Both the position numbers and the translations under genes were made by a program. From positions 1 to 42,178 of the IMG/VR virus record IMGVR_UViG_3300049919_000310: a stretch of 42,178 bases of DNA; one strand, written 5' to 3'. Shown piece by piece: positions 27,342-42,178 of the stretch. The number at the start of each line of letters is the position of its first letter. Within the stretch, counting starts at the first letter, position 1. The notes under the pieces are model-generated. The model was not told the DNA's origin, did not search any database, and saw only the letters and a list, made by a program, of their open reading frames with translations. The DNA comes from a virus.

Positions 27342-27351
27342 CTGGGGCTTA

Positions 27352-27612: not shown

Positions 27613-27626
27613 TTATTTGCTCACGA

Positions 27627-27655: not shown

Positions 27656-27659
27656 AATA

Positions 27660-28025
27660 ATGGAAGCCAACGCCGCCGCCCTACACGGACAGATCAAAGC
27701 GTTCTACAAGAACAGCGCGAAGAACAAATTGGCGGACGTCTATGCCACGCATGGAGTGGACATCCGCCAGTGGCAAAAGTGGCTCGGCGGTCGAACACCT
27801 CGCGATCTCTCCCCGAAGTTCTGGCCGCTGGTCGAGCGCTTCATGCCCGGTGCGACCGCCCTGGTCTTTCCGGCGTGCGCAGTTCCGAAACCACCAGCGG
27901 ACCCACGCGATGCGCGGATCGCGGCACTGGAAGCCGAGCTGGAGACATTGCGACGCAACGCAGCGCAGCACGCCGCGATTCTCGCGGAGGAAGCGGAGCT
28001 GAAAGCAACGCCTGAATATTTATGA
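27660..28025 (+). CDS. Early protein with C-terminal coiled coil
   Basis: A 121-residue protein, MEANAAALHGQIKAFYKNSA..., whose first half has an HTH-like stretch (KLADVYATHGVDIRQWQKWL) and whose last third is a charged coiled coil (ARIAALEAELETLRRNAAQH). This could be a small DNA-binding dimer acting early, as Ner-type proteins do, but I do not recognise the family. The gene begins right after operator copy 3 with no SD. Confidence 0.5.
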   Translation: MEANAAALHGQIKAFYKNSAKNKLADVYATHGVDIRQWQKWLGGRTPRDLSPKFWPLVERFMPGATALVFPACAVPKPPADPRDARIAALEAELETLRRNAAQHAAILAEEAELKATPEYL

Positions 28026-28219
28026 CCCGGACAAACCACATCATGACGTGCCGCTGCGGCGGCATCACATTACCCGTATGCGCGGAGACCGAAAGAGTCT
28101 GGTGCGCACAATGTCTGCCGAATGACCTGCCTCACTATAAGAGGCAGGAAGAACGGCGGAGAAACCCGGAGCTGCCGTTCGACGGCAAGCCCGCAAAGCG
28201 CCAGGAGGTGCTCGCTTGA
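28022..28219 (+). CDS. Small zinc-finger-like early protein
   Basis: A 65-residue protein with MTCRCGG and VWCAQCLP segments, giving four Cys residues suitable for one zinc site, followed by a basic tail (YKRQEERRRNPELPF). The ATG makes an ATGA overlap with the preceding stop. A nucleic-acid binding role is possible. Confidence 0.5.
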   Translation: MTRTNHIMTCRCGGITLPVCAETERVWCAQCLPNDLPHYKRQEERRRNPELPFDGKPAKRQEVLA

Positions 28220-28407
28220 GCGCCGAAGCACTCCGCACGAAAGCCGAACGGCTGCGCAAGCAGGCGGACAAGGCAATTGAAGACGCCATGTATAGCGACG
28301 CGCCCGGCGCGACGGCCAACGCCAAGTCGGAAGCCGCCGAACTGCGCGCCAGCGCGGCGAAGCTCGAAACCCAAGCCGCTCACCTCGAAGCACAGGAGGG
28401 CAACTAA
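28216..28407 (+). CDS. Small helical early protein (TTG start)
   Basis: A 63-residue Ala/Lys/Glu-rich protein, almost all helix (ALRTKAERLRKQADKAIEDA). The TTG at 28216 overlaps the preceding TGA (TTGA) and has a clean AGGAGG at 28203-28208, which fixes the start. Function unknown. Confidence 0.55.
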   Translation: MSAEALRTKAERLRKQADKAIEDAMYSDAPGATANAKSEAAELRASAAKLETQAAHLEAQEGN

Positions 28408-28408
28408 G

Positions 28409-28714
28409 ATGGACGCCCGAACCAAAGCCCACGTCGAAAAGCTCACCCGCGCCGCGCTCGAAAAGCTCCGCGTGGCGCTGGAGGACTGCAAGGCTGGCCG
28501 GCTCGCCTCGGCAAGTTGCGAGGCGACCGAGGCAGGCCGCATCGTCACCGAGTTGAACGACGAACTCTATACCGCCGCGCACGCGGTCTATCAATGGCCT
28601 GAGCCGCCGTTCCAACTCCCGCCCGTCTCGCCGACCGCGCGGATCAGCAACTACCCCGTCCGCCCGTGGCTCACGCCGCACCAGGACCACACCAAGCCAA
28701 TCGTCACGCCCTAA
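28409..28714 (+). CDS. Early protein of unknown function before the transposase
   Basis: A 101-residue protein, MDARTKAHVEKLTRAALEKL..., with a helical first half and a proline-rich end (WPEPPFQLPPVSPTARI). AGGAGGG at 28394-28400 supports the ATG at 28409, not the upstream ones. Its TAA overlaps the transposase ATG (TAATG), so the two are coupled. Confidence 0.5.
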   Translation: MDARTKAHVEKLTRAALEKLRVALEDCKAGRLASASCEATEAGRIVTELNDELYTAAHAVYQWPEPPFQLPPVSPTARISNYPVRPWLTPHQDHTKPIVTP

Positions 28715-31155
28715 TGAACCTCGCCGTCCAATTACCCACCGCTGCCGCCATCCTCGACGAGAAGCTCTCCGCGCCCGATTGGGTGAAGCTGCTCCGCGCC
28801 GTCCGCGCCCAGCGCGGCGAATCATTCAGCGAGCAGGCGTTTCGCAAGCGCTGCGCCGGGCTCGCCGTGAGCGAGATCTCCGGCGGCGCGATGCGCGTCC
28901 TGTTCCCACTCTCCCGGCTGCCGGATGACTACCGCCGCGAGCTGGACCTGCTGAAGACCATGCACGCCGCGCAGACGTTCCACGAGCTGCACTCGATGAT
29001 CCGCTGCGAGACGCGCCACGAGCTGGCCGTGGTGAAGACCACCGGCAAGCCGTGGGAGTCGCACCCCGAAGCCGCGAAAGACCGCGCGCTGAAACGCCAG
29101 CAAGTCATGACCGCCTACTACCTCGCGAGGGAAGCACACGGCGAGATGAAGAGCGTGCAAATCGCGATGGGCAAATGGGCGGACGTGTTTGGCGAGGCGT
29201 GCAACGAGAAGACGATCCGCCGCCTCCGCGACAAGATCGACCACTGCGGCGGCGCGCACGCCCAGCGCGAAGCGTTCCTCGACAACAAGAGCTGCGACCA
29301 CAAAGCCGCGCGGCGCGAAGTGAAGCTCGGCATCCCGACCGTGTTGATTGAGGAGTTCAAGAGCCGGTGCATCGCCTCGGGAGCCGCCCACATTTCCAGC
29401 GCGTATGATTCGCTGGTCGTGGATTGGATGACGGGCAACGAAGTTCCCGGCCTGCCCATCCGCAGCAACGGCGCGGCATTCCCTTGGAGCTACAAACAGA
29501 TGCGCCCGTTTGCGCCATCGACTCCGGCCCGCGTGCGGGGCGCGCGGGGCGAGGCGGCATTCCTCCGCGAGTGCGCGCCGTGGACTCACCGCAGCGTGGA
29601 GACCCTACGACCGCTGGAGATGCTGGTGCTCGATGACACGCGCATCGACTTGATCGCCACGGACGATCTGAACGCGGGCCGGTTGATCGAGCTGAAGGCT
29701 TACATCCTCATGGATGTCCGCACCCGCCGCATCCTCGGGTTCACCATCAAGGACGGCCCCATCGAGAAAGAGGATGTCTTCTCGCTGATTGCACGCGGCC
29801 TGCGCGGCTTCGGCCTGCCCGTCGGGTATCCGATGCGCATCCTGTTTGAGCGCGGCACCGTGGCCTGCGCACCCGCCGCGCAGACTTTGTTGGAAAGCAT
29901 CTGGCCGGGCCGGATCGAGATTCACCGCACCGGCATGGACGGCAAGCGCGCGCAAGTCGGAGCCTTTTGGGAAAGCCAGTCCGGGCACTGGATGGGCAAG
30001 GCGTGGATCGAATCGTTCATGCGCACGCTCTCATTCATGCTGGAGCAATTGCCTGGTCAACGTGGCCGCAACTTCACGCTGCAGCCCGCGACCCTCGGGC
30101 TCAAAGGTCGGGACCACACGACCAACATGCTCCGCTACGACAAGGGCCGGAGCGGCGTCTCCACCGAGATGCACGAAGCGGCGCTCACCGGCTTTGCGAG
30201 CAACGCGCTGGAGTGGATCGAGAACGGCACCATCGGCGACCCGCGCGCCCGGCTCAAGGCCCGCGCGCTGCTGCCGAAAGCATGGGTGATCCGCAAGATT
30301 GCCGACAACGTCGCCTTCTACAACGCCCGCCACGACCACCGCCGCACCGGCTACGCCGTCCGCGAAAGCCTCGGCGAGAAGGGCGAACTCGTGACCACGA
30401 CCGAGAGCGCCGACGAACTTTGGGAGCGGCTCAGCGCCGTGTGCCCTGCCGAGCGCGTGAATCCCGCCGACGCGTCCTCGCTGCTCAAATGGCGCGGCAA
30501 GACGGTGAACGTCTGCGCCCGCGAAGGCGTGACGATGGACGTGAAGCCGTTCAAAGGCCTGCGCTTCCACAGCCCGAACTCGCTGGCCTGCCACCTCGCA
30601 AAGCAGATGAACACGCAGACGAAGCGCATGGTCGCACTCTACGACGAAGAGGCGCTGCGGACATGGCGTCCCGGCTGCGGATGGCAGGTGGAGATCCACC
30701 TCATGCACGACACAAACGCCGCGTGGCAACCCGGCGACCCCGGCAGATACTTGGAGACCTTGCCGCTTGTGACCAATCCCGAAGTGCTCGACGAAGCAGC
30801 CCTCGCTGCCGAAGCGGCACGCAAGGAAACCGAGCTGCGCCGCACGAAGCTGGAACTTATCCAAGCCGCTGGCCCGGCAATGGCGCGCCACCTCCGCGAC
30901 GTGGAGCACGACGAAGCGCGGCTCAAAGGCGTGGTCGTCCCGATGAACCTGAGCCTCGCGCAAATGAGCGCGAGCCAGTTTAGCCAGGACATCCGCAACG
31001 GCGCGGAAGATGCCATCGCGAACGCCGCCCAGCGCGCCAACGAAACCCGCGCCGGAGCGCGCGACGAAGCCGCCGAGGAACTCGCACGCTTCCAGGCTGC
31101 ACACGCAACCACCACGACCGCGACCGACGACGACGCGGAACTCGCGCCTATCTAA
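28714..31155 (+). CDS. MuA-like DDE-type transposase with Glu at second catalytic site
   Basis: An 813-residue protein that should cut and join the phage ends during integration and replicative transposition. The rve core has Asp307 (EMLVLDDTRID), a second acidic residue Glu379 (RILFERGTV) where MuA and TnsB have Asp, and Glu433 (GKAWIESFMRTL). The intervals of 72 and 54 residues match MuA Asp269, Asp336, Glu392 (67 and 56). N-terminal helical domains would bind the end repeats; the last 120 residues are helical and likely contact the ATPase. The start at 28714 overlaps the previous TAA. Confidence 0.85.
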   Translation: MNLAVQLPTAAAILDEKLSAPDWVKLLRAVRAQRGESFSEQAFRKRCAGLAVSEISGGAMRVLFPLSRLPDDYRRELDLLKTMHAAQTFHELHSMIRCETRHELAVVKTTGKPWESHPEAAKDRALKRQQVMTAYYLAREAHGEMKSVQIAMGKWADVFGEACNEKTIRRLRDKIDHCGGAHAQREAFLDNKSCDHKAARREVKLGIPTVLIEEFKSRCIASGAAHISSAYDSLVVDWMTGNEVPGLPIRSNGAAFPWSYKQMRPFAPSTPARVRGARGEAAFLRECAPWTHRSVETLRPLEMLVLDDTRIDLIATDDLNAGRLIELKAYILMDVRTRRILGFTIKDGPIEKEDVFSLIARGLRGFGLPVGYPMRILFERGTVACAPAAQTLLESIWPGRIEIHRTGMDGKRAQVGAFWESQSGHWMGKAWIESFMRTLSFMLEQLPGQRGRNFTLQPATLGLKGRDHTTNMLRYDKGRSGVSTEMHEAALTGFASNALEWIENGTIGDPRARLKARALLPKAWVIRKIADNVAFYNARHDHRRTGYAVRESLGEKGELVTTTESADELWERLSAVCPAERVNPADASSLLKWRGKTVNVCAREGVTMDVKPFKGLRFHSPNSLACHLAKQMNTQTKRMVALYDEEALRTWRPGCGWQVEIHLMHDTNAAWQPGDPGRYLETLPLVTNPEVLDEAALAAEAARKETELRRTKLELIQAAGPAMARHLRDVEHDEARLKGVVVPMNLSLAQMSASQFSQDIRNGAEDAIANAAQRANETRAGARDEAAEELARFQAAHATTTTATDDDAELAPI

Positions 31156-31158
31156 TTT

Positions 31159-32328
31159 ATGAAGACCCGGACAAACCAAGACAACAGCGGAGGCATCATC
31201 AGCTCACCGCATCTCAGGCCGATACAAGTCAGCCTCGCAGTTGCCGCGCACGCGGCACGAACCTACACGCAAGAGCACCGGCACGCTGTGCTGTGGCTCG
31301 CGAACCTCGCGGCCAATTCGCGGCGTATCCAGCTCTGCTGGCAGCGCCGTGGGTTGCCCGACCCACTCGGCACCATCGGACAAATCGCCGAAGTGGAGCT
31401 TGCGCGGAAGCTCAACCTAGAGCCGCTGGCCATCCTCCGCGCGCTCACCGGACACAGCGAGGCAGACTTGCCCGCATTCACCAGCGCGGTGACAAAGTTC
31501 CGCGCTGAGTTTGAAGCGGCAGTCCCGCAACTCATCCCGACAGCGGACATGGCGACCGTGGACGCGGCGTTTGCGGCGGCGTCCGACGAGCATGAGATCG
31601 CCGAGCTGAGCGGCAAGTGGCAGCACGGCAAGACTGCGCTCGCACAGCGGCAGTGGCTCCTCAACCTGCACCGCGCGGTGTGGATCGATACGCCGAGCGA
31701 CAACGCGCAGCAGACGTTCTTGCTCGCCATCGCCAGCGCGCTCGGCATCGGCCAGCACTACAACCTCTCGCGGCTCCACACGCGGATCAAGAACGCGGTC
31801 GGCATCGGGATGATTGACACGATCATCTTCGACGAAGCGCACAACCTTTGGCCGAGCGACTTGCGCGACAGCAAGCCCGTCCGCGCCGAATACGTCCGCG
31901 AACTCCGCGACTCCACGGGCATCGGCGCGCTGCTGGTGACCACCGACCAGTTCGCGCTGTCGATGGAGATCGCGAAGCAGAAGAACACGCGATACGCGCC
32001 GGGCCAGCTCTTTGGCCGCATCCGCCGGTTCGCCACGCACGACAAGCACACCGACGCGGAGCTGAAGGCCATCGCCAAGCTGCACGCAGGCAAGGCCGAC
32101 GCCGATGCAATCCGCGCCCTCACGCTCTTCGCCGAAGCCGAGGAAGGCTACCTCGGCGCGATGGTGCAAGCCGCGAAGCGCGCCCGCGTTGCAGTGACCG
32201 CAGCAGGCCGCGACACCGTGACCGCCGCCGACATCGCCGCCGCGACTCTCGCGCAGCAGCACGACAAGCGCATCGTCCAACTGGCGAGCGTCGTGAAGCT
32301 CGACCGCAAGGGAAGGAGGGCGGCGTGA
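31159..32328 (+). CDS. MuB/TniB-like transposition ATPase
   Basis: A 389-residue AAA+ type ATPase with Walker A GKWQHGKT (152-159) and Walker B TIIFDEAHNLW (Asp225, Glu226). Directly downstream of the transposase gene, it should form filaments on target DNA, pick target sites and deliver immunity to self-integration. The N-terminal 60 residues resemble the HTH-carrying extension of MuB (VLWLANLAANSRRIQLCWQR). The C-terminal helical part (VTAADIAAATLAQQHD) matches lid domains. Confidence 0.8.
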   Translation: MKTRTNQDNSGGIISSPHLRPIQVSLAVAAHAARTYTQEHRHAVLWLANLAANSRRIQLCWQRRGLPDPLGTIGQIAEVELARKLNLEPLAILRALTGHSEADLPAFTSAVTKFRAEFEAAVPQLIPTADMATVDAAFAAASDEHEIAELSGKWQHGKTALAQRQWLLNLHRAVWIDTPSDNAQQTFLLAIASALGIGQHYNLSRLHTRIKNAVGIGMIDTIIFDEAHNLWPSDLRDSKPVRAEYVRELRDSTGIGALLVTTDQFALSMEIAKQKNTRYAPGQLFGRIRRFATHDKHTDAELKAIAKLHAGKADADAIRALTLFAEAEEGYLGAMVQAAKRARVAVTAAGRDTVTAADIAAATLAQQHDKRIVQLASVVKLDRKGRRAA

Positions 32329-32720
32329 GCAAGAAAGCAAAGCAAACACCGCGCACAGCCTCCGCCTGCCACACCGCCACAGGGCTGCTCATGAGCCTGC
32401 CACTGCCTCCGCACGGCTGGAATGGTTGGCAGTTCAACTTTGGCCGATTCGGGTCGGCCTGGTTCATTGAAGCTCAAAGCTGGTTTACAAACATCGCCGA
32501 TGGCGGCGATTGCAGATCCGTATCGGTCCTCTGCCACATGGAAGGCGCGGCTCACCCGTTCCACATCGACCACATCGACGAATGGAAAGGCTACAAAGGA
32601 GTCGAGCGGCAGGAGCGCCTAAAGCTTCCTTACGGCGTCTGGTATCAAGACACCAAGGCAGGGTTCGTGCCGCTCGCGGAACAACACAGGCGCATGACAA
32701 AGAAGGAGGCACTCCGATGA
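32325..32720 (+). CDS. Unknown early protein with aromatic core
   Basis: A 131-residue protein from a GTG start (GTGA overlap with the ATPase stop), with GGAAGGAGG just upstream. The middle is rich in Trp, Phe and His (NGWQFNFGRFGSAWFIEAQS, HPFHIDHIDEWKGYKGVE). The HxDHxD-like HIDHID stretch might bind metal, but no nuclease fold is proven. A small modulator of transposition or an antirestriction factor can be imagined; neither is shown. Confidence 0.45.
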   Translation: MSKKAKQTPRTASACHTATGLLMSLPLPPHGWNGWQFNFGRFGSAWFIEAQSWFTNIADGGDCRSVSVLCHMEGAAHPFHIDHIDEWKGYKGVERQERLKLPYGVWYQDTKAGFVPLAEQHRRMTKKEALR

Positions 32721-33151
32721 TCGAGCAAATCATCGACATCCTGCGCCACCGGCGCGGCAAGGCGAACGCCATCACGGCGCGCGACATCGCGGTGGAGCTG
32801 GCCCGACGCGGGCTCGCGACGACCGAGCGCGGTGTGCGCGACCTTATCTCCGAGGCGGAGGCCACGGAGCAGATGCCGCTGCTCCTAGGCGGGCGCGGCG
32901 GGGAGGGCTTCTACGTCGTGGAGAATTATGACGAGATTGCCGAGCGGGCTGAATCGCTCCGGTCGCAAATCCAGACGCTCACGCGTCGGCTGAACGGCTA
33001 CGTCAGCGCAGCCAGCGGGCTCGGAATCCACGTGCCGATTGGCGACCGCGACGCTCACGCCATCCGCAGCGACCGCACAGACAAGCGGCATCTTGGAGTC
33101 GGGCGCGCAACCATCATACCCGGCATCCGCCGGGCGAAGGAGACCGCGTGA
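32717..33151 (+). CDS. Small winged-helix-like protein
   Basis: A 144-residue protein with an N-terminal helix-turn-helix (ITARDIAVELARRGLATTER) and a wing (GRGGEGFYVVENYDEIAERA), followed by a helix and a tail rich in Asp/Arg. AAGGAGG lies seven bases before the ATG at 32717, which overlaps the preceding TGA. Possible early regulator. Confidence 0.5.
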   Translation: MIEQIIDILRHRRGKANAITARDIAVELARRGLATTERGVRDLISEAEATEQMPLLLGGRGGEGFYVVENYDEIAERAESLRSQIQTLTRRLNGYVSAASGLGIHVPIGDRDAHAIRSDRTDKRHLGVGRATIIPGIRRAKETA

Positions 33152-33720
33152 GCAGTCTCGGTATCGAAGTCATCCAAACGGACGAAGGTTGGGAAGTATG
33201 GACGCCCGACAGCGCTGTCGGCGCGTGCCTTTCTAGCGGGAAAACCCGCCAAGAGGCTATCTCGAACTGCGTTGCGACACTCTGCAACACTGCCGCGCAG
33301 CTAGTGGTCGAAAAATGGGCAGGCGACATTCGCGACGCGCAGGAGAAAGCGCTGTGGCAAGAGCACCAGCAACGCACAACCTGCGTTTGCGGCGCACCGA
33401 AAGAAGTGGGCGGCGTCGTTTGCTGGGATTGCTTCAAATACGTCGAGCACCCGCTGAAAGACTCCGGCCTGCCATTCAGCCAATGGCTGGAGGAACGGCA
33501 ACGACGCGTTCAACCCCAATCACAAGCCACGCCAAAGGAGGGGCACAGCCATGCACAACAAGACGGGGAAAGCCCGTCAGACGCGACGGGTCCGACCCCC
33601 GCCGCGCAACCCATCGACCTGCTGGCTCAGATACGTGCCACGGAAGATGGCAAGAGCTACGTGAGCGGCACCTTTGGGCCACGCGGCATCATCGAATCCA
33701 ACGTCGTCACCCCGGAATAA
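33148..33720 (+). CDS. Unknown protein with HicB-like start and zinc site
   Basis: A 190-residue protein from a GTG start. Residues 1-55 resemble a HicB-type small domain (GWEVWTPDSAVGACLSSGKT, TRQEAISNCVATL). Around residues 78-95 there is a Cys cluster (CVCGAPKEVGGVVCWDCF). The remainder is a Gln/Pro-rich linker and a short C-terminal part. No HicA-like partner is encoded nearby, so a toxin-antitoxin role is not supported. Confidence 0.45.
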   Translation: MSSLGIEVIQTDEGWEVWTPDSAVGACLSSGKTRQEAISNCVATLCNTAAQLVVEKWAGDIRDAQEKALWQEHQQRTTCVCGAPKEVGGVVCWDCFKYVEHPLKDSGLPFSQWLEERQRRVQPQSQATPKEGHSHAQQDGESPSDATGPTPAAQPIDLLAQIRATEDGKSYVSGTFGPRGIIESNVVTPE

Positions 33721-33743
33721 CCAACAAACAAACGCAACAAACC

Positions 33744-34307
33744 ATGAGCACGAAGAAGAAGAAAACCGTCACACCACACTTAGTCCTCGCCACCGAGGAA
33801 GCGCTTATCGGCGCAATAAACCGACACGCGGAGCTTGCGCTTGTCCTCAAAGAAGAGGACGCGGCGCACGAGACGAAAGTCGCAGCGCTGAACACCGAGC
33901 ACACCGATGCCACGCAGGAACGCCGCGACGAACTCGCGCGGCTCGAAAGCAGCATCCACCTCTACGCGACGACGAACCGGGAGACGCTCTTTCCCGGCGA
34001 GAAGAAGTCGAAGGAGTATCCAAACGCCATCATCGGCTTTCGCCTGGGCAATCATAGCGTCGGGACGATCATCCCGAAGGAGACACAAGCGACCATCGCG
34101 CTCCGGCTCGACGCGCTGGAGTGGGGCGAGCCTTACGTGAAGTGGACCCCCGCTATGGATAAAGACGCGCTCCTTCGCGACCGGCTCGTCCTGACGCCCG
34201 CACAGCTCGCACAAGCGGGCATCAAGTTCGAGCAAGCCGAGCGGTTCTTCATTGACCCCGCCGCAAGCTCCGCAGCACGCGTGACACGAGAGGAGGTGGC
34301 AGCTTGA
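33744..34307 (+). CDS. gam: Host-nuclease inhibitor Gam
   Basis: A 187-residue protein of the Mu Gam family, which binds free double-strand ends and shields them from exonucleases. The typical coiled-coil first half (AINRHAELALVLKEEDAAHE, then KVAALNTEHT) and the C-terminal strand-helix part (EYPNAIIGFRLGNHSVGTII) with the ending VTREEVAA are seen. It follows the transposition genes as in Mu. The leader (ACCAACAAACAAACGCAACA before the ATG) is A/C-rich with no SD, as for capsid and tail tube. Confidence 0.75.
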   Translation: MSTKKKKTVTPHLVLATEEALIGAINRHAELALVLKEEDAAHETKVAALNTEHTDATQERRDELARLESSIHLYATTNRETLFPGEKKSKEYPNAIIGFRLGNHSVGTIIPKETQATIALRLDALEWGEPYVKWTPAMDKDALLRDRLVLTPAQLAQAGIKFEQAERFFIDPAASSAARVTREEVAA

Positions 34308-34963
34308 AAACCAAAGGATTGAACGAGGCGATGTTCCTCGCGTTGCTGGAGAAGGTTCTGCCGAACGCCACACGCGACCCGCATCTTGCGTCGAGTATCT
34401 ATGACGCCGTGGCAAAGGAGGTGCGCCTCGCGAAGAACCTCCAGGCGTTTGACAAGTTCTGCGAGACGGGTGCTTTGCCGGACGTTGAGCACAACACGGT
34501 CAAGACGTTCACTGACGAGCTGGACGCGAAGTTCGGCGACGGCAACGTGAAAGTCGACGTGGACGAAGACGGCAGGAAGGTGTCCGTGGAAATCAAGCTG
34601 CCCGACCGGACAGTTGAGGCGGAAGTGAAAGTGGACGCGACCATCGCACTGGAGGAAGAAGCGAAAGTGGTGTTCGTGCCGTTCCCGGTGTCGCTGCCCG
34701 AAGACCCGGAACTTGCATGGATGCTCGCCCGCGACGAATCGTTCGGGCCGGACGAAGCCGCCCGTGCGCTGGCCAATATCGAGGCAGAGTTTTGGGAGAC
34801 GCGCAAAGGACTCGACCTGCAAAAGAAGCGCGTGGAGAAATGCTTCGCAGAGTTCATCATCCACTGCCCGGCAGCGTTATTGAAAGACAGCGGGCTGAAG
34901 CGCCTCTTTAAGACGCCGGAAGCGCTCAAGGAACTGCGACTTCTCGCGGAGGTTCGCAAATGA
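34304..34963 (+). CDS. Unknown acidic protein
   Basis: A 219-residue protein from a TTG start (TTGA overlap, AGAGGAGG upstream). It has helical ends and a strongly acidic beta-rich centre (VKVDVDEDGRKVSVEIKLPD, RTVEAEVKVDATIALEEEAK). The acidic centre could mimic DNA, as anti-restriction proteins do, but the match is only compositional. Confidence 0.5.
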   Translation: MKTKGLNEAMFLALLEKVLPNATRDPHLASSIYDAVAKEVRLAKNLQAFDKFCETGALPDVEHNTVKTFTDELDAKFGDGNVKVDVDEDGRKVSVEIKLPDRTVEAEVKVDATIALEEEAKVVFVPFPVSLPEDPELAWMLARDESFGPDEAARALANIEAEFWETRKGLDLQKKRVEKCFAEFIIHCPAALLKDSGLKRLFKTPEALKELRLLAEVRK

Positions 34964-35229
34964 GCGCGGCCACTCTTCCGTTGACGGGCGGGCGCAAGAA
35001 GCCAGCGCCGCGTCCGCGCACAGAGGGCGTGGTGAAGCCAGCGCGCCGGACTTGTTTCTACGCACGCCTGTACCCCAGCGGCGCGAAGCGGGCTCGCTAC
35101 ATCTCCACGCATCAATCCGACGTGCTCCGCGCCCAGGAGCTACTGCCGCACATCCGCGCGATGGCCGAGCGGACGAAGCACGGGCGAGTGAAGCTGCCGA
35201 ATCCTCAACAGCCGGAGCTTGGCATCTAA
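34960..35229 (+). CDS. Small basic protein of unknown function
   Basis: An 89-residue, very basic protein (GGRKKPAPRPRTEGVVKPAR, then FYARLYPSGAKRARYISTHQ) with the look of a nucleic acid binding polypeptide. ATGA overlap with the previous gene and TAATG overlap with the next. Confidence 0.5.
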   Translation: MSAATLPLTGGRKKPAPRPRTEGVVKPARRTCFYARLYPSGAKRARYISTHQSDVLRAQELLPHIRAMAERTKHGRVKLPNPQQPELGI

Positions 35230-35762
35230 TGTTCTCGCTCGCCCAACGCGCCGAATTTTTCCCGCTCCGCGACCATGCGTGGCGCGTGTGGTCTGCCGCG
35301 AACATGAAGGACACGAAGGACAAGGCGGCGAAGGATGGCTGGTACCGCGAGCTGATGGTGCGCGAGCTGGGCGTCTATTCGTCGAAGGAGCTGTGCCCTG
35401 CGAACGACTACTGCACCGCGATGGCGGTGATGGAAGCGGTCGCAGGCGGCTCTTACGTGTGGCAGCCGGGCAAGCCAAAGCCGATTCGCGTCTTCGAGCC
35501 GGGCCGCATCTTCTGGAACCATCGCGCGACGCAAACGGAGCAGGCCCGCCGCTATCTCCACGCGATCGGCAAGCTCTGCGCGCAACACGAGCTGGAGGAA
35601 GAATACGTCCGCGAGACCGCGCGCCGCGTCGGCCAGCTCCAATCGCGCCCAATCATCGAGCAGCTCACGTCGCCTGTGCTGTGGAAGCTGCTCGCCGCCC
35701 TGCGCATCTACGTGGCGCGACAACTCGCAAAGGAACCCGCGCTGGAGGAGGAACCGTTTTGA
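35229..35762 (+). CDS. GemA/Mu gp16-like protein (DUF1018-like)
   Basis: A 177-residue protein. The WYRELMVRELGVYSSKELCP stretch matches the GemA pattern of a short helix pair, and the end (ARRYLHAIGKLCAQHELEEE, then LWKLLAALRIYVARQL) fits the second half. In Mu, GemA lies in the same semi-essential early region after Gam and modifies host gene expression and DNA supercoiling. The family match is moderate. Confidence 0.5.
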   Translation: MFSLAQRAEFFPLRDHAWRVWSAANMKDTKDKAAKDGWYRELMVRELGVYSSKELCPANDYCTAMAVMEAVAGGSYVWQPGKPKPIRVFEPGRIFWNHRATQTEQARRYLHAIGKLCAQHELEEEYVRETARRVGQLQSRPIIEQLTSPVLWKLLAALRIYVARQLAKEPALEEEPF

Positions 35763-36022
35763 AATACGTCGTCTTCAAGCAAAGAGGCCTACTGATTCCC
35801 GTGGTTTTCCCGGACTGCGGAACTCACGCACTTTTGCAGTGCTCTCAGGCCACGGCACGGAGCGCAGGACACTTCCACCTGGAGCGCGGTGGCGTGATCG
35901 TTTCAGAGCTTCCTTCCACCTCGCTCGGCATTGGCCCGCACCCGGACGACAGCGATCTAATCAGTCACTTACTAATCAATTCCGGCATGTATGCATTCGC
36001 AGATTTGGAGGGTGGGCAATGA
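35759..36022 (+). CDS. Small unknown protein (TTG start)
   Basis: An 87-residue protein, beginning from TTG at 35759 (TTGA overlap, GGAGGAGG upstream). The sequence (KYVVFKQRGLLIPVVFPDCG, then HFHLERGGVIVSELPSTSLG) suggests a small beta sandwich. It could be a modulator or antirepressor; no family is recognised. Confidence 0.5.
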   Translation: MKYVVFKQRGLLIPVVFPDCGTHALLQCSQATARSAGHFHLERGGVIVSELPSTSLGIGPHPDDSDLISHLLINSGMYAFADLEGGQ

Positions 36023-36798
36023 AATCGCAGTTCGAGTTCGAGTTTGACGGAGAGCCGCTGGACGACGAGCCCGCGCCTGGGCACGCCGCGCCGGAGATGA
36101 CGGCGAGCAAGAAGACGCTGGACCGCATCCGCAAATTGCTGCGTTTGGCCAAGGACAAAGCGGCGACTCCCGCCGAGGCCGAGGCTGCAGCGCAGGCTGC
36201 GTGCGAGCTGGCGACGCGGCACCATGTGGACACGGCCTCGCTCAACCTCGACGAACACGAGGAAGCCATCATCGGCAAGTATCTGAAAGCGGGGCGGAAT
36301 GACCGTCTGGCCAAGGGAGTGCGCGGCGTTCTGCGCACCTACTTCCACGTCCACACCTGCGAGTGCGGGAAGCAAGTGCTGTTCGTCGGTCGCGAGACGG
36401 CGGTGGTCATCGCGGAGTTCATGTGGATGTTCCTCATCCGCTCGGGGCGCTCGGCGTGCAGCGACTACGAGCAGGCCGAGAAGCGGCAACGTCGCAAGAT
36501 GACCTCGCTGAAGCGGGAGAATTTCTACGCGGGCTTTTGCTGGGGACTGCACGCGAAGCTGGGCGAGACGCACGCGGCAATGCAGCTCAGCGACAACCAG
36601 CGGCAGATCGTGCTCGTGGAAGAACTGGCGCGTTCTTCCAAGATGGAAGACATCACCGGCGGCACGGTGCAGACGAAACAGAAACCGCTCAAGCGGACGC
36701 TCAGCGCAGCGCACGCAGGCTTTGCCGCAGGCCGGAATACGGAGTGGAACACGCCGGTCGCGAACGGCAAGACGCTGGCACTGGAGGGCGCAGGATGA
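36019..36798 (+). CDS. DUF2786-domain protein
   Basis: A 259-residue protein. Residues 30-75 (LDRIRKLLRLAKDKAATPAE, AEAAAQAACELATRHHVD) are a clear DUF2786 domain, found in phage and plasmid proteins of unknown role. The remainder contains a Cys pair (CECGK, about 117-121), and a helical part with KRQRRKMTSLKRENFYAGFC. Possibly a DNA-associated protein. ATGA overlap with the previous gene. Confidence 0.7.
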   Translation: MKSQFEFEFDGEPLDDEPAPGHAAPEMTASKKTLDRIRKLLRLAKDKAATPAEAEAAAQAACELATRHHVDTASLNLDEHEEAIIGKYLKAGRNDRLAKGVRGVLRTYFHVHTCECGKQVLFVGRETAVVIAEFMWMFLIRSGRSACSDYEQAEKRQRRKMTSLKRENFYAGFCWGLHAKLGETHAAMQLSDNQRQIVLVEELARSSKMEDITGGTVQTKQKPLKRTLSAAHAGFAAGRNTEWNTPVANGKTLALEGAG

Positions 36799-37046
36799 AG
36801 GGCTTGATTTACATCACAACAACAGACGGCAAGTTTGTGTGGGAGCCGTGCAGGATCACAGACGCCACCGGAACAACCGTGATCTGGACCGCGCAGAGAT
36901 CGTACTACGAATACGAGATCAACCCTCTTTGTCTGCTACCCGCGACCGCGACCGAGGCCGAGATCGAGGCGCGCTCAGAGGAGATTCGTAAGTTCATGGC
37001 GCGGGCGGAAGAGGCCGCCGAGGCTGCCGAAGACTTTGCTATATGA
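36795..37046 (+). CDS. Small unknown protein
   Basis: An 83-residue protein, MKGLIYITTTDGKFVWEPCR..., with a beta-rich beginning and an acidic helical tail (ARAEEAAEAAEDFAI). ATGA overlaps at both ends. No family recognised. Confidence 0.5.
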   Translation: MKGLIYITTTDGKFVWEPCRITDATGTTVIWTAQRSYYEYEINPLCLLPATATEAEIEARSEEIRKFMARAEEAAEAAEDFAI

Positions 37047-37414
37047 CCGAACTCAGCGCGCAGATTGAGCAATTCATGCGGACCGAGAAGCGATGGTTTT
37101 CCACGGGCGAGATCGTGAACCGCTTTGGCGTGAACGAACGCGAGTTGCGCGCGGTGGGTGACAAGCCAGGGCTTTGCACGGAGTTCGCGATCTCGGGAAA
37201 CAGCGGCTTCAAGCACGTCGAGCACGCAAGCGACACGGAGTTCGACCGCTTTTACCGGCGCGGACGGGCGCACGGAATCCGCCAGCTCGTGCGCCTGCGG
37301 AGGCTCGCACGCCGCCGCAAATCCTACGTCGCCAGACCCACGCCCGCGCAGACGCGCGAAGGCCAGCTTTTAATCGAACTCCCAGGACTCAACCAACCAA
37401 CAACACACACATGA
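37043..37414 (+). CDS. Small winged-helix-like regulator
   Basis: A 123-residue protein with an N-terminal HTH (QIEQFMRTEKRWFSTGEIVN, then RFGVNERELRAVGDKPGLC) and a very basic C-terminal region (RQLVRLRRLARRRKSYVARP). It is placed before the putative lysin and may control it or act elsewhere in the middle operon. The ATG overlaps the preceding stop. Confidence 0.5.
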   Translation: MTELSAQIEQFMRTEKRWFSTGEIVNRFGVNERELRAVGDKPGLCTEFAISGNSGFKHVEHASDTEFDRFYRRGRAHGIRQLVRLRRLARRRKSYVARPTPAQTREGQLLIELPGLNQPTTHT

Positions 37415-38055
37415 AACGCATCATCGCAACTACACGAACCGAAGGCTTCACCTCGACGATTGTCGAGGAGGATGGAGTCGTCACATTCACCGGAGACATG
37501 GACATCGACGCCGATGGCGCGAACGGCCAGAACGGGGCTCTCGCGGCCTACCGCGTGGACAACAAAGGCAGCGAGCATCTTGCCAACGGAGGCATGGGGA
37601 TTCGCGGCGGGAAGGCCGTGTTCGTCGCGAGCTGGGGGCCGGACATCGCGGCTACCGACGCGAAGGGCAATCCGCTGGTGATTAATGGAGTGATCGTCAC
37701 GAAGACGGCCTACCGCTTTCCCGGCAAGCCGGAGAACGACCCGGCAGCGTATCTCGACAGCGAGACGGTGCCTTACATCGTGGTTCCTCCGAGCATCATT
37801 CGCGGCGTGGAGGGCGTCGTGCTCGGGTGCCAGGCATTTGCGACTTACAAGCGCAAGCGCGTGGCTGCCGTGGTGGGCGACGTGGGGCCGCGCACAAAGG
37901 TGGGCGAGGGAAGCATCGCGCTGGCACGCGCTCTCGGCATCCCGCACAGCCCGCGCAGCGGCGGAATCGACGCGTCGCTCGTGCAGTATGAGCTGATGCC
38001 TGGTCAGCCTGCTGTGGTGGACGGCGTCACTTACGAACTGAGGAGGTCGGTATGA
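37411..38055 (+). CDS. GH75-type glycoside hydrolase, probable endolysin
   Basis: A 214-residue protein with the hallmarks of GH75 (chitosanase) enzymes: GDMDIDADGANGQNG near residue 28, SETVPYIVVPPS (117-128), and VVGDVGPRTKVGEGSIALA with Asp157 and Glu166 exactly nine residues apart, as in the catalytic pair of fungal GH75 chitosanase. In a phage of a Gram-negative host the likely substrate is peptidoglycan glycan. No signal peptide is seen, so a holin would be needed. It has the A/C-rich SD-less leader (CAACCAACAACACACAC before ATG). Confidence 0.65.
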   Translation: MKRIIATTRTEGFTSTIVEEDGVVTFTGDMDIDADGANGQNGALAAYRVDNKGSEHLANGGMGIRGGKAVFVASWGPDIAATDAKGNPLVINGVIVTKTAYRFPGKPENDPAAYLDSETVPYIVVPPSIIRGVEGVVLGCQAFATYKRKRVAAVVGDVGPRTKVGEGSIALARALGIPHSPRSGGIDASLVQYELMPGQPAVVDGVTYELRRSV

Positions 38056-38228
38056 TTGCAGATGCACCGAGGCCGGGCAGCAACTGGCGGCATAAACAGA
38101 CGCGCAAAGTCTTCGCCGTGCCGTTTGGCGAAGACCAGGACGGCGAAGTCGTGGCGGTGAACGACGGCGGGTGCTGGTGCGGAAGCGCCGAGAGCTTCGC
38201 CGAGGAGTTTGAGGAGGTGGCGAAGTGA
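38052..38228 (+). CDS. Small unknown protein with CWCG motif
   Basis: A 58-residue protein (MIADAPRPGSNWRHKQTRKV...) found between the GH75 gene and the next ORF. ATG at 38052 makes an ATGA overlap with the previous stop and is preceded by GAGGAGG; its own TGA overlaps the next GTG. It has a CWCGS motif and an acidic end. Coupling and SD suggest it is real. Confidence 0.55.
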   Translation: MIADAPRPGSNWRHKQTRKVFAVPFGEDQDGEVVAVNDGGCWCGSAESFAEEFEEVAK

Positions 38229-38542
38229 GGACGACCGCAGAAGAGACGGCAGCGCTCGTGTCCGTGGCAAGCGGCGGTGGCGCCCGCGTAGATCCCGAAG
38301 TTTACGGCGAACTGTATGGCAAGGGGCTCGTGTCGGGGAGCAAGCTCACCGATGCTGGGAAAGCGCATTTATGCACGATTGCAAAAGTGATGACGCACGC
38401 GCCGGGCAAGCGGACTTATGTCGTCATCGCCAGCATCGTGCGCAAGGGCAAGAACATGAAGGTCGGCGACGAGTTTGAAGTTAGCCCGGCGGGCACGCAC
38501 GTCCAACGCTGGCTGGCCGAAGGGAGGATCGAGGCGCGATGA
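38225..38542 (+). CDS. Small unknown protein
   Basis: A 105-residue protein from GTG (GTGA overlap). It contains a helical first half (TAALVSVASGGGARVDPEVY) and a strand-rich second half (KRTYVVIASIVRKGKNMKVG, EFEVSPAGTHVQRWLAEG). Function unknown. Confidence 0.5.
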   Translation: MRTTAEETAALVSVASGGGARVDPEVYGELYGKGLVSGSKLTDAGKAHLCTIAKVMTHAPGKRTYVVIASIVRKGKNMKVGDEFEVSPAGTHVQRWLAEGRIEAR

Positions 38543-38793
38543 ATCAGGAAATCGACGCGTTTGAACCCCTTACGCCATCCACTCGGATCTTCATGCCATG
38601 CGGCGACGTGATCGCGAGTTTCCAGCGGGCCAAAGATGCAGTCGCGTGCATCGGCCCGATGGCGCGTGTGCTAGGCGTTACGCTGGAGATTGTACCCGCG
38701 CCAAGTGATACCGTAGCTGCGGATCTCCCGAGAAACGTCTCATTGCAGGACATCGAGAAAGATAACCGCCACAAACTGGTCGCGCGCCCATGA
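38539..38793 (+). CDS. Small unknown protein
   Basis: An 84-residue protein with a possible alpha-beta fold (MPCGDVIASFQRAKDAVACI, RVLGVTLEIVPAPSD). ATGA overlaps on both sides. No family recognised. Confidence 0.45.
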   Translation: MNQEIDAFEPLTPSTRIFMPCGDVIASFQRAKDAVACIGPMARVLGVTLEIVPAPSDTVAADLPRNVSLQDIEKDNRHKLVARP

Positions 38794-39080
38794 AGATGAT
38801 CCTCACCATTGGCTACCAAGAGTTCATCGTGCCAGATGCGGTGAATGCGGTGAAGCTCTACGAGACGCTGGCGAAGCTCAGGCCATGCACGGACAGGTCT
38901 TACTTGCGGGAGAACGCGGTCATCACGGTGGGAACAGCAATGATCAACCTCGACCTCAAGTCCATCCCGGTGAGGGCGAAACTCGTGACCGTGAAAGCGA
39001 GCCCAGAACTGACGCTGTTTGAAGAGGCGAGTGCGGAACTCGACGCCGCGCGCGACGACGGAAAGGACATCCCGGTATGA
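38790..39080 (+). CDS. Small unknown protein
   Basis: A 96-residue protein, MKMILTIGYQEFIVPDAVNA..., with beta-rich first half and an acidic end (EEASAELDAARDDGKDIPV). Overlapping starts and stops at both sides show it belongs to the operon. No family recognised. Confidence 0.45.
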   Translation: MKMILTIGYQEFIVPDAVNAVKLYETLAKLRPCTDRSYLRENAVITVGTAMINLDLKSIPVRAKLVTVKASPELTLFEEASAELDAARDDGKDIPV

Positions 39081-39571
39081 AACCGTCCGACTATCCGCCA
39101 GCAATCCGCGCAGTATTCGACACGTTTTCCCGCGATAGCGGCATCCCGTTGCGGCTGGTTTCTTGCATTCAGGCGGAGCAGGCGACGGTCTTTTCCGACC
39201 ACTTCGAGCTGTGGGAGCTGACCGTCGTCATTCGCTGGATTCTCTCGCGGGTGCGTGCCGCCGAGGACGGCACGGAGCGCACCGGGATGTCGCGCCTCTC
39301 GCTGCAATGGCACTGCATTTTCGGCAACAATGGCGACATGGCGCTGGCTCCGTTCCAGCAAAAGCTTGGGCTCGCCACAGCCTGGGCGCAAAAGCAGGCG
39401 CGCCACCTTTTGCCCGCCCCGGAAAAGCCCGCGCAAACCGCACCGCAAAAGCCGGAAAAACCCGCCGAAACCGCCCCGGTGTGGGACGCTGGCAGGGCGA
39501 AGTTTGAGGAGATGCAAAAGCAGCTTTCCGGGCCAACCTTTACGCGAGGAGACGCAGCCGATGACGGTTGA
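39077..39571 (+). CDS. Unknown protein with Pro/Lys-rich linker
   Basis: A 164-residue protein. The first 110 residues look globular and helical (PPAIRAVFDTFSRDSGIPLR, LWELTVVIRWILSRVRAAED). A Pro/Ala/Lys linker (EKPAQTAPQKPEKPAETAP) separates a short C-terminal helix. Function unknown. Confidence 0.45.
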   Translation: MKPSDYPPAIRAVFDTFSRDSGIPLRLVSCIQAEQATVFSDHFELWELTVVIRWILSRVRAAEDGTERTGMSRLSLQWHCIFGNNGDMALAPFQQKLGLATAWAQKQARHLLPAPEKPAQTAPQKPEKPAETAPVWDAGRAKFEEMQKQLSGPTFTRGDAADDG

Positions 39572-39915
39572 GCGGCAACATCGACCTCGGGCTGGCTTTG
39601 GTTGCCGTGCTTCGGGAACCGGGTGTGGAAATAACGTGCGAGGATCTCGCGGCGTGGTGCGATTGCGCGCCTTCGACGATTCATCGCATCGAACGAAGAG
39701 CGCTGGAGAAAATCCGCTGGTCGGCGCAAAATCCGATCATCCTCTCTGCTTTATTGGAGGGCATGGAAAAACCAGCCAAGGCGGGAGCGGCTTCGCCTTT
39801 CAAATACAAGCCGCAGTTCGGTGTGATCGTGATTTGCGAGAGCGAGCCGGATCAAAAGAAGAAGTTCGCTCTGCTGAAAAAGCAGGGGCTCAAACTAAAG
39901 GTGGTGTCGGTATGA
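39568..39915 (+). CDS. HTH protein with sigma region-4-like motif
   Basis: A 115-residue protein from a TTG start (TTGA overlap). Residues 24-50 (CEDLAAWCDCAPSTIHRIER, RALEKIR) strongly resemble sigma-70 region 4, in particular the IERRALxKLR ending of the recognition helix. The second half is a different, small alpha-beta part (FGVIVICESEPDQKKKFALL). Near the end of the early operon it may be the activator of the late operon, the job done by Mor and C in Mu. This role is inferred. Confidence 0.5.
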   Translation: MSGNIDLGLALVAVLREPGVEITCEDLAAWCDCAPSTIHRIERRALEKIRWSAQNPIILSALLEGMEKPAKAGAASPFKYKPQFGVIVICESEPDQKKKFALLKKQGLKLKVVSV

Positions 39916-41051
39916 TCGCAGAAGTTCATCATCAGTGCAAAGAGGCGGGCGGCTACCGGGCCGCGCGGGTAAAGAGTCTTTTCAACTGCGAAAGCGGCGC
40001 GGAGTTTCGCCTGCGCGCGGAGTTGCCGATTGAGGACTTGGAGTGGAAGGTGGGTTTGATCGTGGGGCCGAGCGGATCGGGGAAATCGTCGCTGGGTGCG
40101 AAGATGTTCGGGCCGAGTGCGATGGTGGATCTGCGAGCGGGTTGGGGCAACCAGGCTATCGTGGAAGAGATCGCGCCGGAGGGGACGTTTGACGCGGTGA
40201 CGGGCGCGCTCACTGCGGTCGGCCTGGGCAACGTGCCGACGTGGCTGAGGCCGTTTTCCGTGCTATCGAACGGGGAGCAGTTCCGGGCCGGGCTTGCGCG
40301 TTTGCTTTGCGAAGCGCCGCAGGTGGCCGTGGTGGACGAGTGGACGAGCGTGATTGACCGGCAGATTGCGCGCGTGGGCTCGCTGGCATTTGCAAAGGCG
40401 TGGCGGCGGACGAACGGCAAGGCGGTTCTGCTTTCGTGTCATGCCGACGTGATTCCGTGGCTGCAGCCGGACTGGATTTTCGACACTGCGACAGGAGTTT
40501 TCTCCGGGAGGTGTCGAAGTCGTCGCCCGGAAATCGAAGTGGAACTTTGGGAGACAGACTGGCGTTACTGGCCGCTGTTTGAGCCGCATCATTATTTGAA
40601 ACTGCCACGAATGATTGCCGCAAAATGCTATGTCGGGACGGTGAAAGGGGAGCTGGTGTGCCATGTGGGCGTGAGCCCGCGTCTGGACATCGGCTGCATG
40701 CGCGCGTGCAGGCTCGTGGTGATGCCGGAATGGCAAGGCGCGGGCGTGGGGATGCGGTTTTTGAACGCCGTCTGTCAGCACCAGCTCGAAGGTGGAAACC
40801 GATGGGAGCGGAAGTGTGAAACGCTGTTTCATACGTCGCATCCGGGGCTTGCGGCTGCGTTGCGGCGAGACTCGAAGTGGAGGCAGGTTTCTGCGGCGCT
40901 TTGCGGACAGCACAAGGGGCGTTCTGCGGCTTCGATGGTGAAAAGTGCGGCGCGCAAGCCATCTTCGCTGCGGGCTGCGGTGACTTCCGGCTACGGTGGT
41001 CATTTTCGGGCCGTGCAGGGGTTCCGGTACACGGGAGGGACAGCGCAATGA
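39912..41051 (+). CDS. ABC-type ATPase fused to GNAT/Mom-like acyltransferase (COG2401-like)
   Basis: A 379-residue fusion. Residues 40-200 are a compact ABC ATPase: Walker A GPSGSGKS (52-59), signature LSNGEQ (118-123), Walker B VAVVDE (138-143, Glu143), and switch histidine His177 in LLSCHADV. No membrane part is encoded. Residues 215-340 are a GNAT-type domain with HHYLK (226-230, a Mom-like motif), RACRLVVMPEWQGAGVGMRF where QGAGVG (275-280) is the acetyl-CoA loop, and a final basic part. Order and length fit COG2401, ABC ATPase fused to acyltransferase. In Mu the Mom GNAT protein modifies adenine in phage DNA against restriction. A similar role is likely here. ATGA overlap upstream and to the formyltransferase downstream. 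Confidence 0.65.
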   Translation: MIAEVHHQCKEAGGYRAARVKSLFNCESGAEFRLRAELPIEDLEWKVGLIVGPSGSGKSSLGAKMFGPSAMVDLRAGWGNQAIVEEIAPEGTFDAVTGALTAVGLGNVPTWLRPFSVLSNGEQFRAGLARLLCEAPQVAVVDEWTSVIDRQIARVGSLAFAKAWRRTNGKAVLLSCHADVIPWLQPDWIFDTATGVFSGRCRSRRPEIEVELWETDWRYWPLFEPHHYLKLPRMIAAKCYVGTVKGELVCHVGVSPRLDIGCMRACRLVVMPEWQGAGVGMRFLNAVCQHQLEGGNRWERKCETLFHTSHPGLAAALRRDSKWRQVSAALCGQHKGRSAASMVKSAARKPSSLRAAVTSGYGGHFRAVQGFRYTGGTAQ

Positions 41052-41710
41052 GGGTGGTTCTGGCGGGACAAAAGCGGTTCGGGCGGGACGTGCTGGCGAT
41101 GGTGTGCGCGCGGGGCTGGGATGTCGCGGCGGTGTTTTGCCCGGATGGCGACGACCGGCTGAGGCACGAGGCCGTGAACCGGAGGCTGGCGGTGTTTTCC
41201 GCGCGCGAGCTGACGGCGGCAATGATGCCCGGCGGCGTGCATTTGATCATCGCGGCGCACTGCCACACGTATATCTCGGCGAAGACGCGGGCGCGGGCGG
41301 AGCTGGGCGCGCTCGGGTATCATCCGTCGCTCTTGCCGAGGCACCGAGGGCGGTCGGCTATCGATTGGGCGCTTCGGTTTGGGGAGGCGGTGACGGGAGG
41401 ATCGGTTTTCTGGCTGAACGACACCGTGGACGGCGGGCCGATTGCCGCCCAGGACTACTGCCACATTCAGCCGGGAGATACGGCGCTGGAGTTGTGGACG
41501 CGGGACTTGGCACCGATGGGGCTGCGGTTGTTCAAGCGGGTGTTCGACGAGCTGGATCGTGGGTTCGTGCGTGCGGTGCCACAGGATACGGCGCTGGCGA
41601 CTTGGGAGCCCGCGCTCGATGGCGTTCCGCCACTCTGGAGACCCGACGTGCCACAGCTCGGGATGAGCCGTTTTACCACGGTGGCGGATCGTTTTACAGA
41701 GGCAGGATGA
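41048..41710 (+). CDS. Formyltransferase-like protein coupled to the ABC/GNAT gene
   Basis: A 220-residue protein of the formyl-transferase family (Fmt/PurN/ArnA N-terminal fold). The tail of the fold is plain: GYHPSLLPRHRGRSAIDWAL with His92, GGSVFWLNDTVDGGPIAAQD with Asp128, and PGDTALELWTRDL. The catalytic Asn two residues before His in well-studied members is Gly90 here. The N-terminal Rossmann strand is MRVVLAGQKRFGRDVLAMVC. It lacks the C-terminal domain that methionyl-tRNA formyltransferase needs for tRNA, so the substrate is something else. ATG at 41048 overlaps the preceding TGA, so it should act with the ABC/GNAT protein, possibly as a donor of a one-carbon group for a modified base. 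Confidence 0.65.
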   Translation: MRVVLAGQKRFGRDVLAMVCARGWDVAAVFCPDGDDRLRHEAVNRRLAVFSARELTAAMMPGGVHLIIAAHCHTYISAKTRARAELGALGYHPSLLPRHRGRSAIDWALRFGEAVTGGSVFWLNDTVDGGPIAAQDYCHIQPGDTALELWTRDLAPMGLRLFKRVFDELDRGFVRAVPQDTALATWEPALDGVPPLWRPDVPQLGMSRFTTVADRFTEAG

Positions 41711-41897
41711 TCTCTTTCGCGCCACGTTTCACGAGCTTGCGCCGGGCCGCTTCGAGCACCATTTTGCGGAACTCGCCTTCGTACGTCAGGGTGTCGCCTT
41801 TTTGGGAGAGATCCACAGTCTTGCCCATGAGGTCACGACCGAGCCTGAAGCTGCCGAGCCATTCCCCAGCGGCTTCCTGCGCGGACTCCCAACTCAA
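41694..41897 (-). CDS. Small convergent protein of unknown function
   Basis: A 67-residue ORF on the minus strand with a TTG start at 41897 and a TAA overlapping the end of the formyltransferase gene. The sequence (QEAAGEWLGSFRLGRDLMGK, VDLSQKGDTLTYEGEFRKMV, KLVKRGAKEIILPL) reads like real protein. Upstream in another frame an ORF ends with a TGA that overlaps this start (TTGA), similar to other couplings in the element. No SD is visible. It may be a lone terminal phage gene. Confidence 0.4.
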   Translation of the reverse strand: MSWESAQEAAGEWLGSFRLGRDLMGKTVDLSQKGDTLTYEGEFRKMVLEAARRKLVKRGAKEIILPL

Positions 41898-42178
41898 CCG
41901 TCATCGTGCTGCGTCTCCATCGCGTAAAGTTGAACCGGTTGTCGCCGAACTCCCGGCGGTTGGCAAGCAAGGTGGTTGTCGGTTGTGCCGACAGCGCGAG
42001 ACAACCGGGGACAACCCATCGGGCTCCTGTGGACATTTGTTCCGTGTCTCGCGGTTCCGGCTGAAGGTTGGACATCTGTTCCAAAAGCGGCCCTCTAAAA
42101 CCCCGTTTTCAGGGATAGTCCGGCCTTTTCGGGGAGTTTCAGCCCTTGGACATCTGCTCTGGGCTGGTCGTCAGATAC
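41898..42178. other. Right prophage end, no clear gene
   Basis: These 281 bases hold no convincing coding sequence. They carry two GGTTGTC (41937-41943 and 41974-41980) facing two GACAACC (42000-42006 and 42010-42016), three copies of the end repeat, and short A/T-rich patches. Read inward the window edge is GTATCTG, close to the TGTAGCG at the left terminus, so the prophage end is probably at or just past the edge. Confidence 0.5.
42028..42160. repeat. Right-end transposase-binding repeats (three copies)
   Basis: TGTGGACATTTGTTCC (42028-42043), GTTGGACATCTGTTCC (42067-42082) and CCTTGGACATCTGCTCT (42144-42160) share TTGGACATYTGYTC. The same core, inverted, occurs twice at the left end (358-392). 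Spacing is 39 and about 78 bases. Together they define the two ends of a transposable element and are the likely binding sites of the transposase at 28714-31155. Confidence 0.6.

Follow-up and report, generated by a model that had tools for sequence, protein, structure and literature searches.

Mom of phage Mu (PF25680), from a known DNA-modifying family, leaves N6-carbamoylmethyladenine as its mark. The prediction of Iyer (2013) assigns an uncharacterised acylation of a DNA base to another kind of GNAT acyltransferase, one joined to an ABC ATPase; section 3.4.7 of PMC7824862 cites it and names Tenacibaculum phage pT24 in this connection. In a third case, the proven CmoX/CmoY carboxymethylcytosine system of phages, ParBc proteins are frequent companions (PMC12783734).

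The locus described here lies in a viral sequence of 42,178 bp (the window, by which the whole stretch analyzed is meant) and consists of a partner gene, a gene for an ABC ATPase fused to a GNAT domain (ABC-GNAT) and a formyltransferase gene (Table 1). It seems somewhat more probable than otherwise that this cassette serves phages as a system for acylating DNA bases, in the functional class to which Mom belongs. Like com-mom of phage Mu, it occupies the extreme right end of a Mu-like genome, is led by a small partner gene whose end runs into the gene for the enzyme, and encodes a GNAT-type enzyme, whose conserved H-Y motif may be the counterpart of that in Mom. It differs from com-mom in its fused ABC ATPase, its canonical acyl-CoA loop and its failure to match the Mom profile, in a partner tail whose sequence suggests a beta-alpha-beta-like segment rather than a zinc knuckle, and in the extra formyltransferase. 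The position at the genome end, compared with that of mom in the initial annotation, holds, but the cassette closes the early/middle rightward operon, and mom of Mu ends the late one.

The ABC-GNAT is the same two-domain protein as in the predicted ABC-ATPase-GNAT family (phrog_11143; Leptospira phage LE4, Tenacibaculum phage pT24), so that the suggestion of DNA modification made for it from the window's sequence had been anticipated by the 2013 prediction cited in section 3.4.7 of PMC7824862. The cassette differs from that family as described in adding a docking-tail protein and a formyltransferase, and the text of PMC7824862 has 0 occurrences of "formyl". With CmoX/CmoY the cassette family shares the frequent company of a ParBc protein and, it would seem, a multi-step build-up of the mark, but that system uses carboxy-SAM chemistry and its description mentions no GNAT, acetyltransferase or formyl step (PMC12783734). 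Thus the ABC-GNAT acylation prediction was known already, and the tail, the formyltransferase pairing, the donor genes and the exchange with Mom appear to be undescribed; no literature on these four was found, although 2013 and 2020 papers from the Aravind group possibly mention the formyltransferase. With them, a prediction published in one line becomes a defined system in which the docking tail is dedicated and the targeting and donor parts can be exchanged.

A Mu-like prophage and its last rightward genes

The window contains a complete Mu-like prophage. Profile searches found MuA, MuB, Gam, and the Mu portal, protease and tail genes; the structural genes run leftward, and those from MuA through to the cassette run rightward. 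A 5 bp target duplication (CGTCA) is present at 340-344 and 42169-42173, and removal of 345-42168 joins the flanks into an unbroken outer-membrane efflux ORF, which rebuilds the empty site. Repeats resembling MuA sites lie at both ends of the prophage; the right-end pattern has only three exact matches within the window, all in its last 150 bases, and two near copies of it stand inverted at the left end. The initial annotation had placed a gene pair at the right end of a Mu-like prophage, and the ABC-GNAT and formyltransferase genes are indeed the last rightward genes before that end. A minus-strand ORF of 67 aa (41694-41897), which overlaps the end of the formyltransferase gene and lies between it and the right-end repeats, has no family matches.

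Table 1. Features of the Mu-like prophage and its right-end cassette (window coordinates)
Feature	Position	Strand	Basis
Mu-like prophage, inserted in a host outer-membrane efflux (OMF/TolC-type) gene	345..42168		CGTCA duplication; joined flanks
Left-end repeats GGACATTTGTCG, GGACATTTGCTT, MuA-binding-site-like, inverted relative to the right end	356..389	-	Pattern search with mismatches
Right-end repeats GGACAT[TC]TG[TC]TC at 42031, 42070 and 42148	42031..42159	+	Exact pattern matches
Partner protein: N-terminal HTH-like segment and C-terminal putative docking tail (tail ~39766-39912); start codon uncertain	39568..39915	+	phrog_28816; weak HTH
ABC ATPase fused to GNAT acyltransferase, 379 aa	39912..41051	+	ABC_tran, phrog_11143, AlphaFold model
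ABC motifs: Walker A 40065-40088; signature LSNGE 40263-40277; Walker B/catalytic Glu 40335-40340	40065..40340	+	Alignment
GNAT domain: HHYL motif 40587-40598; acyl-CoA-binding loop QGAGVG 40734-40751	40527..41048	+	AlphaFold, Foldseek, motif counts
10-formyl-THF-type formyltransferase without C-terminal domain, 220 aa; His92 41321-41323, Asp128 41429-41431	41048..41710	+	PF00551

The ABC-GNAT protein scores 33 bits against Pfam ABC_tran (cut-off 25; E 1e-7) and falls below the cut-off of the Pfam GNAT models (E 3e-4), but its residues 206-379 form a clear GNAT fold in the AlphaFold model (pLDDT 83), for which Foldseek finds acetyl-CoA-bound GNATs. The joining of the two domains in one gene, and the ATGA overlap of that gene with the formyltransferase gene, were thus correctly read at the outset. 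The match to phrog_11143 spans the whole gene (472 bits, E 2.5e-141), and the protein has the order of that family, an ABC ATPase and then a GNAT with catalytic or ligand motifs in both; the full model resembles the ABC-GNAT of Leptospira phage LE4 over its whole length as a fold match (E 2.5e-29). Among 31 aligned members the key ABC residues are invariant or nearly so, H226 of the HHYL motif occurs in 30 and Y228 and L229 in all 31, and the acyl-CoA loop QGxGxG is invariant except for its last Gly (29/31). A role as a defence system was rejected, the sole PADLOC match being to the ABC signature region of mad3, which is not meaningful.

The nearest relative, in a Verrucomicrobia MAG (L084; 76% identity), also conserves the partner gene. 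Relative to it, dN and dS are 0.22 and 1.14 for ABC-GNAT (dN/dS ~0.19), 0.14 and 0.80 for the formyltransferase (~0.17), and 0.35 and 0.87 for the upstream gene; dN is below dS in all three, so all three are coding and constrained. Purifying selection acts on both enzyme genes, which are genuine and intact.

The partner protein and the spread of the cassette

The locus had at first been described as a cassette of two genes. Both are there, but a third coupled gene, overlooked until now, makes the cassette begin further upstream; it overlaps the ABC-GNAT gene by 4 bases, and overlaps of 4 bases prevail in relatives too (134/170). The last ~49 residues of its product (67-115) match phrog_28816 (E 3e-18), and its first half gives weak, HTH-like matches. 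The tail proper (~38 aa) directly precedes ABC-GNAT in 158 of 163 related loci, standing alone in 118 of the tail-bearing loci and forming the C-terminus of a ParB-like protein in the other 40. ParB-like proteins of Gordonia, Streptococcus, Lactococcus and marine phages end in it, and it is also found at the end of those that precede far more distant ABC-GNATs (Lactococcus P335, Streptococcus MismyG, Jace and SL25-like phages). A composite tail query returned 22 records among 50,697 phage genomes, and ABC-GNAT is adjacent in all 22, as judged by comparison with the ABC-GNAT search results and annotations. From these sequence patterns we infer that the tail is a docking module and that the DNA-binding part may be ParB, an HTH-like segment or nothing. 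A ParB or tail partner is nearly absent from clade P12024S (3/75).

The cassette occurs in phages and prophages of Proteobacteria, Bacteroidetes, Verrucomicrobia, Planctomycetes and Actinobacteria, and the loci with a formyltransferase have hosts from the first four of these phyla and others. The gene pair recurs, as had been proposed for checking, in Mu-like phages (of Pseudomonas and Porphyromonas, for example), in Gordonia phages, where the order is ParB, ABC-GNAT, formyltransferase, terminase, and in other phages; it is linked to phages rather than to sugar or metabolite pathways. The formyltransferase lies directly downstream of ABC-GNAT in 132 of 149 (tblastn) or 129 of 146 (HMM) close relatives with room for it, ~88% of a non-random set with near-duplicates that was picked by likeness to the ABC-GNAT gene. 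In a tree of 69 non-redundant proteins, a quick tree with many weak branches, it is present in 51 of 63 scorable members with ~8 changes of state, and it was not found in the SL25 and P12024S clades. Its absence from 12 of the 63 and from whole clades makes it accessory, and it is a standing but dispensable partner. Close relatives without it have no convincing substitute third gene; terminase genes or prophage ends come next. Where relatives are on contigs of 25 kb or more, the contig end is within 1.5 kb of the cassette in 21 of 33 tail-only cases and in none of the five ParB-bearing ones.

Exchange with Mom

The best available sign that ABC-GNAT may modify DNA bases comes from comparing the sequences of one pair of Arthrobacter phages, EastWest and Sonny. 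The slot is bounded in both by related genes (EW73/SO68, EW78/SO72 and EW79/SO73 are 64%, 80% and 45% identical, respectively), and the ParB bodies (EW74/SO69) are 55% identical over 132 residues. In this slot EastWest carries an ABC-GNAT-type tail and ABC-GNAT, whereas Sonny carries a CPNCG (zinc-knuckle) tail, a small gene and Mom. Since flanks and ParB body are common and tail and enzyme differ, the latter two were exchanged together, and the place of a known DNA-modifying family has been taken by ABC-GNAT; the pair offers a natural comparison of the two enzymes. This replacement, with the recurrence of the cassette in phages of many phyla, indicates that the cassette most likely puts a mark on phage DNA.

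The ParB protein before Mom in phage Antuna likewise ends in a Cys knuckle, and the mom genes of Mu and GEC_PNG14 are preceded by Com-type double-knuckle proteins. Com may thus correspond to the tail, serving Mom as the tail serves ABC-GNAT, and be the docking remnant of a ParB-like partner.

ABC-GNAT is nevertheless not simply Mom-like. The HHYL motif noticed in the initial annotation is real and conserved in the aligned members, and it falls in register with HYS of Mom, but the hhalign match is weak (P 0.001, probability 21%), the protein has QGAGVG and not the Mom-specific ELNR.W..D...PRNSES stretch, and the Mom profile (PF25680) gives no match to it at E<=1 (Mu Mom itself scores 253 bits). 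Membership in the Mom family was accordingly rejected and the functional analogy kept. Comparison of structures, which had been suggested as a check, confirmed a GNAT fold but did not single out Mom: generic GNATs dominate the search and match the fold as well, and LP65 Orf128, which also matches Mom by sequence, ranks only 11th, which is not decisive.

The best PDB matches of the GNAT domain are in fact protein and small-molecule acetyltransferases, and Rac, a GNAT of phage origin, targets host RNA polymerase (cited in PMC7824862). ABC-GNAT might then acylate a protein, whether of the virion or of the host (RNA polymerase or a defence protein), with ParB or the tail targeting nucleoprotein complexes, and the position of the cassette after tail genes in Komp_PAO1_1 and the Porphyromonas phages would suit such a target. 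The specific coupling to ParB or an HTH-like segment, the adjacency to terminase and the replacement of Mom at the same locus all argue for DNA instead, and we consider a protein target unlikely.

Two further observations concern Mom-bearing phages. Genes for ABC-GNAT and for a Mom-like protein occur together, though apart from each other, in Aeromonas phage PX29 (L171, L208), which shows that one system does not preclude the other. CPxC knuckles are common to Com of Mu, to the Com-like ORF of P. aeruginosa phage GEC_PNG14 and to ParB proteins linked to Mom, which carry them at the C-terminus (the cases are L172:5769-5957, L206 upstream of mom, and the ParB C-termini of L207 and L397).

The formyltransferase, the acyl donor and a possible mechanism

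The last gene encodes a Formyl_trans_N core alone (PF00551, 80 bits, cut-off 26); a Pfam search found no tRNA-binding C-terminal domain or any further domain, in agreement with the initial annotation. Its His and Asp are invariant in 28 aligned members, and the Asn of the usual NxH is absent from all 28, with G, I or S in its place. Identity with PurN (GAR transformylase) was rejected on this lack of an Asn-x-His pair and on score (45.9 bits against a TIGR00639 cut-off of 150), and identity with Fmt (Met-tRNA formyltransferase) on score (59.6 against a TIGR00460 cut-off of 201.5) and the missing C-terminal domain. The same evidence bears on the idea that the enzyme is a folate or purine metabolic gene of PurN/Fmt type hitchhiking with an ABC-GNAT DNA modifier. 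Several phages do label it phosphoribosylglycinamide formyltransferase and it can be lost, but its place directly downstream of ABC-GNAT in ~88% of relatives across phyla, scores far under both cut-offs, the missing catalytic Asn, and a reverse search in which both scorable matches of the formyltransferase carry ABC-GNAT make hitchhiking quite improbable.

The best PDB match is the N-terminal domain of ALDH1L1 (E 9e-23). The YHPSLLPRHRG core is identical in the two, both conserve the His and Asp, and neither has Asn at the NxH position, where the ALDH1L1 PDB sequence reads IIYHPS; the phage enzyme differs in standing alone, without a carrier or dehydrogenase domain. The ALDH1L1 domain hands its formyl group to the thiol of 4'-phosphopantetheine (PMC8748788), which with the like residue pattern makes formyl-CoA a reasonable product here. 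By this analogy, formyl-CoA-dependent formylation is plausible; alternatively, the formyl group would cap an amine.

The gene order in the Jace sister clade is ParB, ABC-GNAT, PanD (aspartate decarboxylase; PF02261, E 2e-33) and CoA-transferase III (PF02515, E 2e-8). Loci found through the Jace-type CoA-transferase have ParB, tail and ABC-GNAT upstream in seven of seven scorable cases, and the decarboxylase in four. These sequences suggest that the two genes, in the formyltransferase's place, supply an acyl donor. Aspartate decarboxylase and CoA-transferase could yield beta-alanyl-CoA by established chemistry; PanZ/PanM is a GNAT that activates PanD, and linkage of a GNAT with PanD alone is no proof of donor supply. 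The formyltransferase may, by analogy with the Jace clade, likewise be a donor supplier. Of the acyl-CoA plus one-carbon donor pathway first proposed, the acyl-CoA part is thus backed by the conserved CoA loop and by the CoA-related genes of the sister clade, and the formyltransferase chemistry is hypothetical. Aspartate decarboxylase and a short (~227 aa) CoA-transferase III stand behind ParB and ABC-GNAT in L166:7065-8176 and L215-L232; among named phage genomes, this CoA-transferase occurs only in Jace.

These parts could work together as follows. The small upstream protein would dock by its tail on ABC-GNAT and bring the enzyme to DNA, through ParB in many phages, through the HTH-like segment here and, in most other Mu-like phages, through the tail on its own. 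The ABC module, to judge from its family, would probably dimerize on ATP and act as a DNA-engaging switch or clamp, with translocation as a further possible role, and the GNAT module would transfer an acyl group from acyl-CoA to the exocyclic amine of a base. The formyltransferase would move formyl from 10-formyl-THF either to CoA, making a formyl-CoA donor, or onto an amine as a cap in the modification. The purpose would be escape from restriction. DNA seems quite likely to be the substrate and acyl-CoA nearly as likely to be the donor; that formyl enters the final mark or its precursor has a little under an even chance.

In its most specific form, which is rather doubtful, formyl would pass from 10-formyl-THF to the CoA thiol, ABC-GNAT would use formyl-CoA to N-formylate a base at sites chosen by ParB or the HTH-like segment, and the Jace-type clade would use beta-alanyl-CoA made through PanD and the CoA-transferase; use of that donor on the same engine would mean that the donor module, which is exchangeable, determines the mark. 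If true, such folate-fed, ATP-gated DNA formylation would be both a new base and a new route.

Least probable is a DNA role without base modification, in which ParB and the ABC ATPase would organize or mark DNA for packaging or segregation and the GNAT and formyltransferase would regulate ParB or the ABC protein: the ParB family partner and the terminase neighborhood in Gordonia and SL25-like phages would fit it, but most Mu-like members have the tail without ParB (the 118 tail-only loci) and Mu-like phages have no linkage to packaging genes. The preferred reading remains base acylation. ParB-type partners, specific docking tails and the replacement of Mom have strengthened the initial annotation's hypothesis of DNA modification, in which the modified base itself is a prediction. 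Named phages with known laboratory hosts, among them Gordonia BiggityBass and Yago84 and Arthrobacter EastWest, carry the cassette, which makes the missing base open to mass spectrometry; a new base, if true, would explain restriction resistance of the carrier phages and could give new DNA-marking enzymes.

Several existing labels of cassette genes differ from the assignments made here. In Porphyromonas phages BK068090-BK068092 and PP754929 (L002:9876-10004) the label "acr candidate" has been put on a small gene that encodes the docking tail of the cassette, and anti-CRISPR is therefore probably a misannotation. In Oenococcus phages MT859305 and MF939898 the ParB-tail protein encoded ahead of ABC-GNAT is labeled adenine methyltransferase or DNA modification methylase, and the cassette formyltransferase of Gordonia phages (gene 3; L003:1823-2473) is labeled "tRNA-methyltransferase" in several genomes. 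The formyltransferases of Bacteroidetes and some others (L002, L130, L018) are only ~155 aa long and lack the N-terminal half, but still keep the His, the Asp and the HPS.LP core.
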